12,204 bases of DNA, from assembly GCA_003694355.1 (NCBI GenBank), contig RFKI01000236.1, forward strand, positions 1 to 12,204. The letters are read 5' to 3'. How positions within the stretch are numbered: position 1 is the stretch's first letter; the number at the start of each line of letters is the position of its first letter. The notes under the pieces are model-generated. The model did not search any database, was not told the DNA's origin, and saw only the letters and a list, made by a program, of their open reading frames with translations. The translations under genes and the position numbers were made by a program. This stretch comes from Bdellovibrio sp. (lineage in GTDB: Bacteria; Bdellovibrionota; Bdellovibrionia; Bdellovibrionales; UBA1609). Shown one piece after another: positions 1 through 6,913 of this stretch.

Positions 1-1171
1 CATATGAAGCACCAGGTTGTGGATCAGTATTTGATCGCAATATCTAAAAAATATCAAGCAGGATCTAAAAATGAGAAAAGTTATTTGTTAGATCACGCTC
101 AACTTGTCACAAAACGCTCAAGAAAGCAGTTAATCAGAAGATTAAGGAGCATTTCGGCAAATAATGGCAAACCCAAAACAAAGGGTTCCGGCAGGCCCCT
201 TGTTTACTCTCGTGATGAACTAATACCTCACATCAGATATTTATAGGAGCAAATGGAAAGGATCTCAGCCAAACGCATGAAAGCAGCCCTTCCTGACTGG
301 CTACCAGATTATAAAGATTGCCCAGCTCATTTAAAATTTCAACTTCAAAAAATGAGCGCAACAACTTTGGATCGGTACTTAAGGTGTGTTAGAGAAAGTT
401 TAACAACTACAAAAGGCTTATCCACAACTTGCCCAGCAAGACACATGAAAAATAAAGTCCCCATCAATACTCTAGATGCTCGCATAAAAAAGCCTGGTTA
501 TACACAAACAGATACCGTAGCCCCACTGTGGGAATAGTGTGTCTGGTCCCTTTATAAGCTCTCTCACCGTAACAGATATTTTTACTACATGGACAGAGAA
601 CAGAGCTATGTTTACTAAAAAAGGAATGGAGGTAAAAAAGCAATTTAAAGATATAGAAAAAGCTCTACCCTTTAAACTGTTGGCCATAAACTCCGACTCA
701 GGTAGCGAGTTTTTAAACAAAAATATGCTTCAATTTACCAAATATGGGACTAGAGTGATGTTTACACGTTCAAGGCCCTACAAAAAGAATGATAACTGTT
801 ATGTGGAGCAAAAAAATTTTACTCATGTCAGAGAGTTATTTGGCTATGAACGATTTGAAGATGAAAGCCTCGTAGATCTTATGAATGAAATTTATACTAA
901 ATATTGGAACCCTCTTCAAAACTTCTTTTTGCCAACCTTTAAATTAAAGGAGAAAGTTCGAGTGGGTTCCACTATAAAAAAGAAATATGATACACCTAAA
1001 ACGCCCTACCAAAGAGTGCTAGAAAGTGGAGTTCTTAATTCCGTGGAAGTTAGAGCTTTAAAAAAACGCAGACATGAACTCAACCCATTTGAATTAAAAA
1101 AGAACTTAGAGATAAAACTTAAAGAATTTTTCGATATTGTTCGAAAAAAAGATACAAAAAAGGTGGCTTAA
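1..1171 (+). mobile_element. Insertion-sequence remnant, left end outside the window
   Basis: This is the part of an insertion sequence carried in the window; its only recognisable content is the broken transposase gene described separately. The left inverted repeat would lie before the first base. No convincing right terminal repeat or target-site duplication could be identified after 1171, so the right boundary is the end of the reading frame and not a proven element end. With the transposase broken twice, the copy should be unable to move itself. Confidence 0.55.
4..1171 (+). pseudogene. Broken DDE transposase / integrase-core protein (IS481-like group)
   Basis: The reading frame encodes a transposase of roughly 385 residues with an N-terminal helical DNA-binding region and an integrase-type catalytic core. 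The catalytic acidic residues are all visible: Asp at 511-513 in the DTVA motif, Asp at 695-697 in SDSGSEF, and Glu at 806-808 in VEQKN, about 37 residues after the second Asp. Two lesions inactivate it. A TAG codon at 244-246 follows HIRYL, where I recall related proteins carrying Trp, so TGG to TAG is the simple explanation. A single extra C in the CCCC run at 521-524 shifts the frame: dropping it restores the motif DTVAHCG across the joint, and the frame then runs uninterrupted to TAA at 1171. The segment from 539 has no start of its own and is the continuation. The family assignment to the IS481/ISNCY-like group rests on motif recognition only. Programmed frameshifting is unlikely because the amber codon is a second, independent lesion. 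Confidence 0.85.
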
Positions 1172-1558
1172 AATGCAGAAAATAACTCCCCGCTTCTTAG
1201 TGACGTTTATTTATGAGGTCATACGGAATTCTTTAAAAAACAGGCCAACAACCTTCTTATTGAAATGCAAGGTACACAACCCCCCAAAAGCTTGTTTTTT
1301 GAGATATCAGAAAAAATCTATTATTTCCTATAGAAGATAGCCTTAAGGGTTTTGAGACTTTTAATGTCTTAAATGCAATCAAAACCAAGTCATTTTTTAT
1401 TCTGGTTCTCCACAATTTTGCATTCCTTATGGCTTTCATGATAAGTTTTTTTCAACATAATCGTCGATCAGGGTTTAAACAACACAGAGTTTCACCTATT
1501 TTAATAACAAAAGTTTTTTGACTATTTTCCTAAAAACCATCCTTATTTTTTAATCTTT
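1172..1558. other. Gene-free stretch after the IS remnant
   Basis: I see no credible coding sequence here; the short open frames on both strands match nothing recognisable and have no ribosome binding site. The stretch contains the dispersed 22-mer at 1450-1471 and the first copy of a 12-base direct repeat. It also has a TTGACT at 1518-1523, but no acceptable -10 box lies at the right distance. The right end of the insertion sequence presumably lies in its first part. Confidence 0.5.
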
Positions 1559-1575
1559 TTGATTTTCATGATAAG
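1434..1575 (+). repeat. Exact 12-base direct repeat, copies at 1434-1445 and 1564-1575
   Basis: TTTCATGATAAG occurs at 1434-1445 and again at 1564-1575, 130 bases apart, just upstream of and overlapping the start of the FkbM-type pseudogene. The core TCATGA is palindromic. It may be a small duplication or a coincidence in A+T-rich DNA. Confidence 0.4.
1450..1471 (+). repeat. Diverged third copy of the 22-nt dispersed element
   Basis: The sequence reads TTTCAACA, five variable bases, GTCGA, T, CAG. It matches the arm at 5499-5520 (same orientation) and the complement of the arm at 5300-5321 at 18 of 22 positions each. It lies in non-coding DNA between the transposase remnant and the methyltransferase pseudogene. 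No inverted partner was found within a few hundred bases, so it is a solitary copy. Confidence 0.5.
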
Positions 1576-2316
1576 AAGAACTATTTCTGTAAAAAATGGA
1601 GAAAAGAATGACAAAAAAATAAAACTTCTTCGCAAAACATTTTTCACAAACTTTATACGAATACATTATTCCCAATTTGGTGAAGATATTATTTTAAAAG
1701 AACTCATCAAAGAAGACTACACAAATGGATTTTATGTGGATGTTGGTTGCTACCACCCTAAAAAATTCTCGAACACATATATGCTCTATCGAAAAGGATG
1801 GAGGGGAATAAACATCGATATGGACAAGACAAAATAAAACTTTTCAATATGGCTCGCCCCAAAGACTACAATGTTATTAGTGCAGTTTCTGACAAAAGAG
1901 AAAAAGTCCTTTTACACCGATTTGGCTCCTTTGGACTCGGGTCTACAATTGACCAAAACATTGCTCTTAGCGCAAAAGATAAAATATTAGACACCCAAAC
2001 TATAGAGACTAAGCCTCTTAACGAGATCATTAATAAAAGCCCCTTTAAAGATCAGCAAATCGATCTATTATCTATTGATGCTGAAGGAATGGATTATAAA
2101 GTTTTGTGTTCCCTTGATTTCCATAAATACCAGCCTAAAATCATTATTATCGAGTCTCACTGCAATAATATCCAGGATGTTTTAAAAACGGATATTTATA
2201 AATTCTTAGATAGCCGATCTTATATTCTCCGAAGCTGGACCTTTTATTCCTTGATTTTTATTCTTCCTGGAGCAAACCTTCTAAAAGACAGGGAAAAAGG
2301 AAGGTGCTTTTCTTAA
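1568..2316 (+). pseudogene. Frameshifted FkbM-family SAM-dependent methyltransferase
   Basis: The product resembles FkbM-family methyltransferases, which O-methylate sugars and other small moieties and often sit in surface-glycan loci. The N-terminal part carries QFGEDIIL and the SAM-binding motif GFYVDVGCYHP, followed by GWRGINID. The later part carries FNMARPKDYN, AVSDK and LLSIDAEGMD, all typical of the family. The two parts are in different frames: the first stops at TAA 1835-1837. Restoring one A to the run at 1831-1834 would give DKTKIKLFN and a continuous protein of about 230-250 residues. The start is also damaged. The only well-placed ribosome binding site (GGAG at 1598-1601) precedes ATG 1608, which hits TAA after four codons unless one A is added to the A7 run at 1613-1619. 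ATG 1568 is in frame but has no visible ribosome binding site. No partner glycan genes are present. Homopolymer sequencing error is the main alternative to true decay. Confidence 0.8.
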
Positions 2317-4363: not shown

Positions 4364-5197
4364 TTAAACATGATTTTCAAGCCGTTTTTTATCCTGTTGA
4401 TTGGCTTGCCACCATTGCTCCAAGTCGAGAAAAGCTTTGTACATCTGAGGATGAGTTTTGGAGAACCAATCAAAGAAGGCATCTACAAAAGTGGAAACCT
4501 CTGAGTGCTTTATACCATCCGTTCTCATGAAATCAACATAGAGATTAATAACATCTAAAGCCAGCTGAGGAATCCGAGGTTTTTTACAAAATATCTCATC
4601 AATGGATGGGAGGCATCGCTCAGACTCTTGTAAAATATGAGAGGGATCCAAGTTCAGTAAGGCGTCCTTTTTTCCATCAAAAGATACAGGACGGGCCTGA
4701 GGAGCAATATGTTGAGTCCCATTTGTAAGCTGATAATCATCAGTGGGATCACAGGCCACCCAACGACCATTTAAAAATACCCCCACATAAACATGATACG
4801 AACGGTAACTCATAAACTGGTTAAAACGAGGCACACAATAGGGACCAAAATACTCCCTGGTTTTAACCACACTCACATGATACCCGGCTGGTATCCCTAA
4901 AGACCGCAGAAGAGCCACCATTACATTGGCCTTATTGGAGCAACTTCCTCCCTTGTAGGCAATGGTTTCCAAAGCTGTATGCTGATAAAGGCCTAACCGA
5001 TACAAGAGACGGTCTCGCACCCAATGAAAAATCAAGGAAGCAGCTTCTGACTCATCCCATGCATTTTGAGTTAAAAGCTGAGCTAAGTCTTTAATCTTCT
5101 GGTCCTGACAAGGACAAAACTCTGTAGGCATTAGAAAGGCTGCCTGAGTGGAGCTGATAACATTTTGTTGAGATTCGTTTTGAGAAAGTCTTTCCAT
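4364..5197 (-). CDS. Transglutaminase-like (papain-fold) cysteine peptidase domain protein
   Basis: The 277-residue protein has the transglutaminase-like core: Cys86 in KGGSCSNKANVMVALLRS, His135 in YRSYHVYVG and Asp150 in WVACDPTDD, forming the Cys-His-Asp triad. The GSC followed by a helix and LGIPAGY, and the spacing of about 50 then 15 residues, fit the family. Bacterial members usually cleave or transfer peptide bonds and are rarely true protein cross-linkers. Residues 190-277 form a helical tail rich in aromatic and acidic residues that I do not recognise. No signal peptide is visible, so it is predicted to be cytoplasmic. The start at ATG 5197 is preferred over the upstream TTG 5230 because GGGGAGG lies directly before it, although the spacing is short. 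The stop lies 12 bases before the CoaBC-like start, suggesting co-transcription. The substrate is unknown. Confidence 0.82.
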   Translation of the reverse strand: MERLSQNESQQNVISSTQAAFLMPTEFCPCQDQKIKDLAQLLTQNAWDESEAASLIFHWVRDRLLYRLGLYQHTALETIAYKGGSCSNKANVMVALLRSLGIPAGYHVSVVKTREYFGPYCVPRFNQFMSYRSYHVYVGVFLNGRWVACDPTDDYQLTNGTQHIAPQARPVSFDGKKDALLNLDPSHILQESERCLPSIDEIFCKKPRIPQLALDVINLYVDFMRTDGIKHSEVSTFVDAFFDWFSKTHPQMYKAFLDLEQWWQANQQDKKRLENHV

Positions 5198-5285
5198 ATC
5201 CTCCCCTTTGAGATGTAAAGTGAAATTCAAAGTTAAAACTCTTTTCTAAGCAAAATTACTGCGCCAAATCAAGGGGTGAGATATA

Positions 5286-5296
5286 TTAACTGTTAA
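5286..5296. promoter_or_regulatory. Perfect 11-base palindrome, operator-like
   Basis: TTAAC-T-GTTAA is a perfect palindrome around a central T. It lies four bases outside the left arm of the long inverted repeat and 89 bases upstream of the transglutaminase-like start. It could bind a dimeric repressor. Such palindromes also arise by chance in A+T-rich DNA. Confidence 0.3.
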
Positions 5297-5299
5297 AAA

Positions 5300-5520
5300 C
5301 TGCTCGACTACTGTGTTGAAACGCGTCGCATATAAATCCAGAAAAGGCCTTCTTTTTCATGTAAAAAACTGGTCATTTTTTCAATAATGGGGTGGCTCTC
5401 TAAGAGCTCCTAGGATTAAATAAAGATCTCTCTCTAACCATCTAATATTGTTCGATTTTCAATCTTCTTGTGGGCAAGGTTGTTTTTATTACAAGACTTT
5501 TCAACACGATAGTCGAGCAG
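5300..5520. repeat. Long inverted repeat: 22-nt arms enclosing 177 bases
   Basis: The left arm is 5300-5321 and the right arm 5499-5520. The complement of the right arm matches the left at 20 of 22 positions. As plus-strand RNA the arms would form 21 pairs with one G-U and a single C-A mismatch. The match stops abruptly at both ends, so this is a discrete unit and not the remains of a longer duplication. The flanking bases (TAAAA before, CTGGT after) show no target-site duplication. Small hairpins lie inside and just outside. It could be the closing stem of a structured RNA of about 220 nt, the ends of a MITE-like element, or two opposed protein-binding sites. Confidence 0.7.
5395..5407 (+). 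repeat. Small hairpin inside the long inverted repeat
   Basis: GCTCT-CTA-AGAGC forms a five-pair stem with a three-base loop. It sits near the middle of the enclosed segment, followed by overlapping GAGCTC and CCTAGG palindromes. It would be an apical hairpin if the 5300-5520 segment folds as RNA. Confidence 0.4.
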
Positions 5521-5525
5521 CTGGT

Positions 5526-5543
5526 GAGAGCTATTAAGCTCTC
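5526..5543 (+). repeat. Perfect 7-bp hairpin with ATTA loop
   Basis: GAGAGCT (5526-5532) and AGCTCTC (5537-5543) pair perfectly around ATTA. The hairpin lies six bases after the right arm of the long inverted repeat and 50 bases before the cyclase-like start. No T-run follows on the plus strand, so it is not a classical terminator. It may belong to the 5' leader of the downstream gene. Confidence 0.55.
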
Positions 5544-5593
5544 CTACAGTCTACCGAGAAGGAAGTATCACTCCAAAAGGACACAAGAAACCC

Positions 5594-6913
5594 ATGGGAC
5601 ATACCTTTCGCCAAGCACTTGTAAGACAATACCAGTCCTGGCAAAACCATAACCGCCTTAGCAATGCTCTTTTCACATCCAATCTTTGTTTATTCACCAT
5701 GGGCATGATGTTCTTCTTTGATTTTCTTTTTGTGGAAGACCCTTCGCCCTTTATTAAAGTTCGGGCCCTCAGTATCTTGGCGCTACTTCCGGCCTACACG
5801 CTCATTTTTATTTTAAATAGGCTTTTCCAAAGAAGTGTTTTGGAAAAAAACGCCCCTCTAGCCCGCTTCGCTGAGTCTTTTTTGCTCTTGTGGCCCCTTT
5901 TTGTCTATTTTATCGCCTATATGGTTTTCTGTTTTTCCTTCCATCATGAAAAGTTTTTTATTTATTACACAGGACTGCACCTCGGCATTTTGTACTCCAC
6001 ACTTGTTCTTTATCGATTCTGGAAGGAACAGTACTTTTACAATGCCACCCTTATTTTTGTGGGGTTAGGTTTCTACATTGGGAGCCCTCAATCTCAAAAA
6101 GATTATTTTTTAATTATTAGTATCGCCTCATTGGTGGCCTGGTTTGTGGCTTTCTTTTTAAGAAGGGAGTTTGTCAGCAACCTCAACGCCAAATACACAC
6201 TCTTTCGCTCTCTGGTTCCAGAAAAAATCGCTCACCTTTTGCTAGTAACAGATGAAAAAAAAGACTACAGCTTTGCTTTTGAAGCTAAACGTCGCTTCAC
6301 CGTTTGCGTTTGTGCTGACTGGAGAAACTTTCAAAAATTATGTTACAGTAAAACCGCTCAAGAAATGCACAATCTTCTGGAAAGTTACTATGACCTTATT
6401 GTAGAAGACTTAGAAAAATCAGTTCCAGAACAAGGATATTATTTTAGTTGGATAGCCGATGAATTATTTATCATCTTCTATGATGACCACGACCATCGCG
6501 ATGTTGTTATTAAAAATGCCATTGCCTTCACTCTGCACCTGGCCTCTTCCCTGTTTGAAAAAGTTCAAAACCAAGTCTCTAATGAAATTACATTTGATAT
6601 CGGAGTGTCGGCAGGTGTTGGATTGCTCGGCCTGCAAGGCCCTCAAAGGCTCAAGAAAACGACCATCATTGGCCCTGTGGCTGGAATGGCCAAACGATAT
6701 GAAGAAGAAGCCAAAAAACACAGGAAACAAAAAGCTTTCCACTACCCCGCTGTTATCTTTGATGCTCAACTAGAAAAAAACTTAAAACAACACCCCTTTG
6801 CATCTTCAAAAGGAAAACTTCAAGAGGTCATTGCTTCAACCAAAGATATTCAGGGACAAAAAGTCCTGCTCTGGACCTACACAGCTCATCAAAGCAAAAC
6901 CAAAGCCGCTTAG
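5594..6913 (+). CDS. Six-helix membrane protein with degenerate class III nucleotide-cyclase domain
   Basis: The 439 residues fall into an N-terminal membrane part with about six helices (near 27-47, 55-77, 92-114, 120-140, 148-164, 171-190) and a cytoplasmic class III adenylate/guanylate cyclase-like domain (about 233-430). Metal-binding aspartates are visible as Asp242 (VCADWRNF) and Asp289 (WIADELF), and Arg368 fills the phosphate-binding Arg position in GPVAGMAKRYE. Other determinants are changed: the transition-state Asn position is Gly364, the purine-recognition Lys position is Ser285, and the Asp position is Lys355. The protein may make a different product, need a partner subunit, or act only as a sensor. 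ATG 5594 is the only in-frame start after the stop at 5525; AAAGGA lies upstream at a somewhat long spacing. It is transcribed away from the transglutaminase/coaBC operon. Confidence 0.8.
   Translation: MGHTFRQALVRQYQSWQNHNRLSNALFTSNLCLFTMGMMFFFDFLFVEDPSPFIKVRALSILALLPAYTLIFILNRLFQRSVLEKNAPLARFAESFLLLWPLFVYFIAYMVFCFSFHHEKFFIYYTGLHLGILYSTLVLYRFWKEQYFYNATLIFVGLGFYIGSPQSQKDYFLIISIASLVAWFVAFFLRREFVSNLNAKYTLFRSLVPEKIAHLLLVTDEKKDYSFAFEAKRRFTVCVCADWRNFQKLCYSKTAQEMHNLLESYYDLIVEDLEKSVPEQGYYFSWIADELFIIFYDDHDHRDVVIKNAIAFTLHLASSLFEKVQNQVSNEITFDIGVSAGVGLLGLQGPQRLKKTTIIGPVAGMAKRYEEEAKKHRKQKAFHYPAVIFDAQLEKNLKQHPFASSKGKLQEVIASTKDIQGQKVLLWTYTAHQSKTKAA

Follow-up and report, generated by a model that had tools for sequence, protein, structure and literature searches.

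An inverted repeat between divergent genes of Bdellovibrio sp. as a very probable copy of a miniature transposable element

The locus and its inverted repeat

The window, a 12,204-nucleotide stretch of DNA from Bdellovibrio sp., is contig C45 of the draft genome G000 (1.89 Mb, 325 contigs, 82.9% complete). A long inverted repeat sits between the divergent starts of two genes, as reported in a first-pass annotation of the letters, which had left three readings: a structured RNA, a MITE-like element or two opposed regulator sites. The flanking genes encode a transglutaminase-like protein and a 439-aa protein with an adenylate/guanylate cyclase domain (Table 1), and the element adds 225 bp to the upstream region common to both. 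For the cyclase-domain protein, the closest other relative among the 33 matches listed was 51% identical and came from a "Bdellovibrionales bacterium"; another so named was 33% identical.

The reported repeat is real. Its arms at 5300-5321 and 5499-5520 are complementary at 20 of 22 positions, and the two departures, a T-G and a C-A mismatch, are those described earlier. Within 5198-5593 (396 bases) no 22-mer inverted repeat does better than this 20/22, and none of 500 first-order Markov resamplings of that region reached 20 (mean 14.9, maximum 17). The sharp bounds ascribed to the arms were borne out by the same sharp ends at other loci; based on the family alignment, the ends move 2 bases outward on each side, to 5298 and 5522, giving an element of 225 bp. 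The described lack of coding sequence also held, with no open reading frame of at least 60 aa lying wholly inside 5298-5522; one mechanical 60-aa frame starts at 5470 and exits the element.

Table 1. Positions of the element, its parts and the associated genes in the window
Feature	Position	Strand	Evidence or remark
Whole element: 225-bp non-coding miniature inverted-repeat element, A type	5298..5522	+	Full-length similarity to C49:10057-10282, C53:206-431, C178:1685-1910(-), C105:2256-2481(-)
Left terminal inverted repeat, 24 nt	5298..5321	+	Left arms of the five intact copies vary at 2/24 columns
Right terminal inverted repeat, 24 nt	5499..5522	-	Penultimate base differs from other copies (GCT for GTT)
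Left-end subterminal motif CGCGTCGCA	5322..5330	+	Similar in B-type elements; alignment A3, ten left-type ends
Right-end subterminal motif TTGTTTTTATTACAAG	5480..5495	+	Alignment A2, ten right-type ends
Flanking gene: transglutaminase-like protein	4364..5197	-	Pfam PF01841, E 7e-17; ATG 100 bp from element
Flanking gene: 439-aa protein, adenylate/guanylate cyclase domain	5594..6913	+	Pfam PF00211, E 5e-7; ATG 71 bp from element
Broken ISNCY-type transposase, candidate parent remnant	4..1171	+	Three frames 4-246, 253-537, 539-1171; left side off contig; 539-1168 40% identical to ISLbi1 transposase; weak rve match
Downstream of the broken transposase: probable family right end, decayed	1433..1473	+	Model R1 matches 1433-1471, E 0.019 for genome

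Copies, subfamilies and signs of movement

A nucleotide search for dispersed copies, which the first-pass annotation had asked for, found copies elsewhere in G000. Searching with 5280-5540 returned 21 matches, including the window copy and arm-to-arm cross-matches, and five of these were full length and at separate loci. The four other full-length copies, on C49, C53, C178 and C105, are 71-81% identical to the window copy. All five intact copies measure 225-226 bp (window 225, the other four 226), open with AACTGCTCGACTA and close with its complement, the window copy being the sole intact one to deviate from that complement, at the penultimate base. The 11-mer CTGCTCGACTA occurs exactly 20 times in the 1.89 Mb of G000; with up to one mismatch it totals 28 occurrences, barely above the 23 of the reversed control. 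The 23-mer end pattern with up to two mismatches occurs 19 times in G000, and its reversed control does not occur.

A second subfamily in the same genome, the B type, has the same ends and a different interior. We counted 18 elements and remnants on 15 contigs, with C37 and window positions 1433-1473 left out of the tally. There are five intact A-type copies, the probable decayed copy on C191, four A-type right ends at contig starts (C26, C129, C76, C105), three decayed right ends (C132, C34, C151) and five B-type elements (C53:972-1435 of 464 bp, C285, C76, C55 and C4, the last with only the first 36 bases in common). End models recover the intact copies plus weaker places in the genome. Both end types occur at C191:9232-9453 in correct order, spaced about 222 bp; since the likeness is weak (E values of 0.011 and 5.7 with the end models; z of 1.6-3.6 for the interior), we call this stretch a probable decayed copy. 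Inspection by eye shows in its left part a GC hairpin plus T-run, resembling a terminator, at the place taken in other copies by AAAAGGCCTTCTTTTT or a close variant. Seven of the 18 counted elements and remnants seem to run off a contig end, as is typical of repeats, and the family explains several assembly breaks. An A-type and a B-type element at C53 206-1435 enclose, much as in a composite element, a 142-aa frame (539-967) that contains a glycine-rich stretch.

At their left-type ends, A and B elements share about 32 bases, made up of the arm and a CGCG-like motif; the right-type ends share the arm plus TTGTTTTTATTACAAG or a near variant. Transposons usually have matched yet distinct ends.

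Comparison of C76:1-152 with C105:1-152 revealed agreement at 149 of 152 bases, and after a common GG the flanks differ. On C76, what follows the A-type end is the final 63 bases of a B-type element, the inner part of which runs on in C285; our reading is that an A-type element went into a B-type one, ending at GCAGTT. Sequence comparison shows that the family has dispersed with common sharp ends, has spread recently and includes one nested insertion.

Across the five intact copies the arms vary at 5/48 columns and the interior at 113/175 ungapped columns (6 gapped columns dropped; Fisher p 6e-12), and across the closest three at 5/48 and 52/177 (4 gapped columns dropped; p 0.008), these p values being a guide only because the copies have common ancestry. 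Length stays constant at 225-226 bp while, in the multiple alignment, the interiors of C178 and C105 are down to 53-59% identity. TIMEs likewise keep their length while the core diverges (PMC4133298). The arms erode too at the decayed ends on C132, C34, C151 and C191, and therefore do not look maintained by a local role.

No consistent target duplication was found among six intact elements when repeats of at least 3 bp were considered. The C178 copy has TTA, C53a and C53b have 4 bp only with shifted ends, and C49, C105 and the window copy have none, the last in agreement with the earlier observation that flanking direct repeats are absent there. Target duplication is usual, not obligatory; it accompanies few TIMEs (PMC4133298) and 40% of MITEAba12 copies (PMC6382973). 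Cyclase homologues occur in 9 of 47 family genomes, the host's own included. The best outside G000 is 34% identical, which is too distant for an orthologous empty site to be compared. None of the 47 family genomes is a second genome of the host's genus.

Placement relative to genes was checked for 17 entries against reading frames of at least 90 aa, on sides lying within contigs. No entry interrupts a long frame except C55, where a B-type element end (2153-2193) supplies a 309-aa frame with its stop and the 12 codons before it. For frames whose 3' end faces an element, the stop lies at -1, 0, 3, 4, 5, 7, 16, 43 or 81 bp from it, a list that leaves out C55, a 101-aa frame on C178 overlapping a longer opposite one and a 94-aa frame inside a C129 gene. 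Facing starts are at least 40 bp away except at C105a, with an ATG at 37 bp (a non-ATG start would overlap the element), and at C55, with an ATG about 2 bp from the edge as set, or overlapping. Convergent genes enclose the C105 copy, which fills the gap; their stops are 7 and -1 bp away. Survival of harmless insertions would give such placement.

Among the 47 family genomes, the element was found in its own genome only, save for a 28-nt match to the interior at G019:C1:47423-47450 (E 9e-5), which has no arms and lies at a locus from which the core word is absent. Among 368 phylum genomes, the end pattern with up to two mismatches occurred, apart from the 19 occurrences in G000, once each in 3 of the 367 others (2 mismatches each); the reversed control pattern was commoner there, in 28 other genomes. 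Four single exact matches to the end pattern in genome_contigs (Herpetosiphon, a cyanobacterium, a clostridium and a haloarchaeon) were taken as chance because they showed no likeness by eye and no second CTGCTCGAC. The end pattern had 0 matches in viral_contigs, and the element had none in the plasmid and phage collections in distant mode; the genome of the window itself, or those very close to it, may be missing from the collections searched. A search of the literature on Bdellovibrio MITEs found no relevant paper, most subscription journals being outside its scope. We rate the family as lineage-restricted and, so far as searched, new as a family, although of a known kind.

Interpretation of the element and its candidate parent

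If the intergenic region is transcribed, the long arms around 177 bp could close a structured RNA of about 220 nt. Its fold energy is better than that of dinucleotide shuffles (z -3.1 on the + strand, 1/200 as good; z -4.8 on the - strand, 0/200), as long arms alone would give, and the five intact copies can all form a stem of 24 pairs. The structure proposed in the first-pass annotation also exceeded slid versions of itself (85.8% of cells paired vs at most 49.1%; covariation score 0.113 vs at most 0.075), which is expected of any inverted repeat, and the CAATA/TATTG helix has two pairs with a change on both sides. However, 20 of the 24 arm pairs are invariant, and the covariance-type folding check suggested earlier, when run on the copies, found compensatory changes not beyond shuffles, about half of which reach the observed values (240/500 for paired percentage, 233/500 for covariation score). 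A double change occurs in 4 of 48 pairs of the predicted consensus fold (covariation term -0.28). As for the internal pairings named earlier, the share of cells that pair in the five intact copies is 30% for ATGG/CCAT, 76% for CAATA/TATTG and 84% for the hairpin at 5395-5407. No Rfam family reached its gathering score in the window; 5230-5600 gave only five matches below gathering, the best at E 0.29 to a nematode snoRNA, and a tRNA/tmRNA search gave none. With copies that are numerous, scattered and decayed, and with a simple scan of 5100-5700 that found nothing resembling a promoter or terminator, we regard an RNA function as highly improbable.

The arms could also be sites at which a site-specific recombinase flips the 177 bp, carrying a promoter, at several loci. 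Multiple invertible promoters exist in Bacteroides, and nearly fixed arms around a variable interior, a length of 225-226 bp in five copies and the position of many copies upstream of a gene would suit such a switch. It is nevertheless very unlikely, given that at C105 the genes on either side converge on the copy, with stops at 7 and -1 bp, that a B-type element with the same ends spans 464 bp, that one element lies inside another and that a simple scan found no promoter-like site at the window copy. The position between divergent starts would equally suit two opposed binding sites for a regulator of the gene pair, as proposed in the first-pass annotation. That proposal fits poorly and is hardly credible, because the same arms, with a related interior between them, are also found next to unrelated genes, in several cases no more than 7 bp from a stop codon, and one copy fills a gap between convergent genes.

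The element does not fit two other known classes of repeat. REPIN/REP elements are recognized by a GTAG or CGTC tag and a RAYT transposase; GTAG is present in the right arms of C53 and C105. Single arms of the present family are not stable hairpins, three of them folding as DNA at 0, -1.1 and -0.3 kcal/mol, no better than shuffles. Tn3-derived TIMEs need 38-bp Tn3-type terminal repeats, and the element has 24 bp starting AACTGC, which we take not to be a Tn3 end.

Gene-less elements that hitchhike on transposons are a well-known kind, and we consider 5298-5522 very probably a copy of one, a non-autonomous miniature inverted-repeat transposable element (MITE). Of the three earlier readings the MITE-like one is best supported, by copies with the same sharp ends at other loci of G000. 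The element is 225-226 bp long and has no frame of at least 60 aa inside the window copy; it has terminal inverted repeats at common sharp ends and several dispersed copies in the genome; and movement is indicated by the 149/152 pair with different flanks and by the A-type end cutting into a B-type element. Target-site duplication, a usual mark, was not found consistently. Bacterial MITEs are about 50-600 bp long (PMC6382973).

Spread of the MITE in the genome was probably helped by the enzyme of another element. The 24-bp terminal repeats with their end-specific inner motifs would be cutting sites (AACTGC/GCAGTT) for a transposase supplied in trans, which would then insert the unit elsewhere, and the RNA hairpin would be a by-product of the terminal repeats. 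The parent may have been an ISNCY-type insertion sequence, with the broken transposase at 4-1171 as its putative remnant.

The probable decayed end at 1433-1473 lies in the right orientation, 262 bp past the end of the transposase frame, and agrees at 19/24 arm positions, the window's best after the element's own arms (next best 17). When six family sequences were compared with window 1150-1500, using 300 shuffles for each, right-end matches came from C132, C26 and C49 (1/300 as good each) and a match elsewhere in the stretch from C151 (3/300); the matches to C76 (15/300) and C34 (88/300) were not convincing. Two transposase families were searched in the genome: PF01609 (DDE_Tnp_1) had no match in G000, and PF00665 (rve) had one, at window 551-769, under the cut-off and with no intact family end beside it. 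Translated pieces of the B-type elements C53:972-1435 and C285 matched no Pfam or NCBIfam model at E 10. The piece 539-1168 has relatives in 249 plasmid records, all below 60% identity; among the best 120 of 1491 proteins its best other relative is 82% identical, and the relatives are mostly unnamed. In viral_contigs, 14 pattern stretches were found for this piece and none was confirmed. By eye, the two overlapping frames at window 1559-2316 resemble a single methyltransferase gene, presumably FkbM-like, split by a frameshift.

Ends were sought in eight plasmid relatives of the transposase. Five of these had usable ends, whose likeness to the arm was judged against the rest of the same locus. 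Of the ten ends, the two ISBj12 ends alone stand out, with 2.5% of stretches doing as well; for the remaining eight the figure is 13-90%. Most ISNCY ends are thus not beyond control, and the ISNCY type as parent type is therefore a lead only, which we hold tentatively. A more complete account appears improbable as a whole: in it, an ISNCY-type MITE family would insert directly after stop codons, without target duplication, and its length would be held at 225-226 bp while the core diverges because the transposase needs that end spacing, with both a copy and the broken parent in the window.

With the MITE reading, a candidate regulatory RNA is removed from the list, and a Bdellovibrionales-type genome gains a MITE family with clear ends and a pointer to a possible parent within the same window.

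Comparison with known systems

Two ISNCY-type elements from plasmid records partly resemble the family at their ends. ISLbi1, whose transposase is 40% identical to the window piece, has an end, ATCTACTCGA, that agrees with the arm at 8/10 positions, and the ends of ISBj12 agree with it at 15/24.

Among non-autonomous elements, TIMEs, as portrayed in PMC4133298, are similar in size (262 bp) and have conserved terminal repeats, a less conserved core and a near-fixed total length; direct repeats occur in few copies, some copies are flanked by gene 3' ends, and their RNA is capable of a long stem-loop. They are mostly single copies, in contrast to the many copies in one genome here. MITEAba12 (PMC6382973) is likewise non-coding and of near-constant length, with terminal repeats and one copy fused to a gene 3' end. 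It differs in being 113 bp long, in having 9-bp duplications (40% of copies) and in having a known parent, ISAba12. The small MITEs covered in PMC2229807 are mostly below 200 bp, with TA ends and target duplications, features that are not consistent in the present family. Among them, RUP, Correia/NEMIS, CIR and RPE resemble the element in having terminal repeats, in being mostly intergenic and in that they may lend codons to an adjoining frame, as the family does here at C55.
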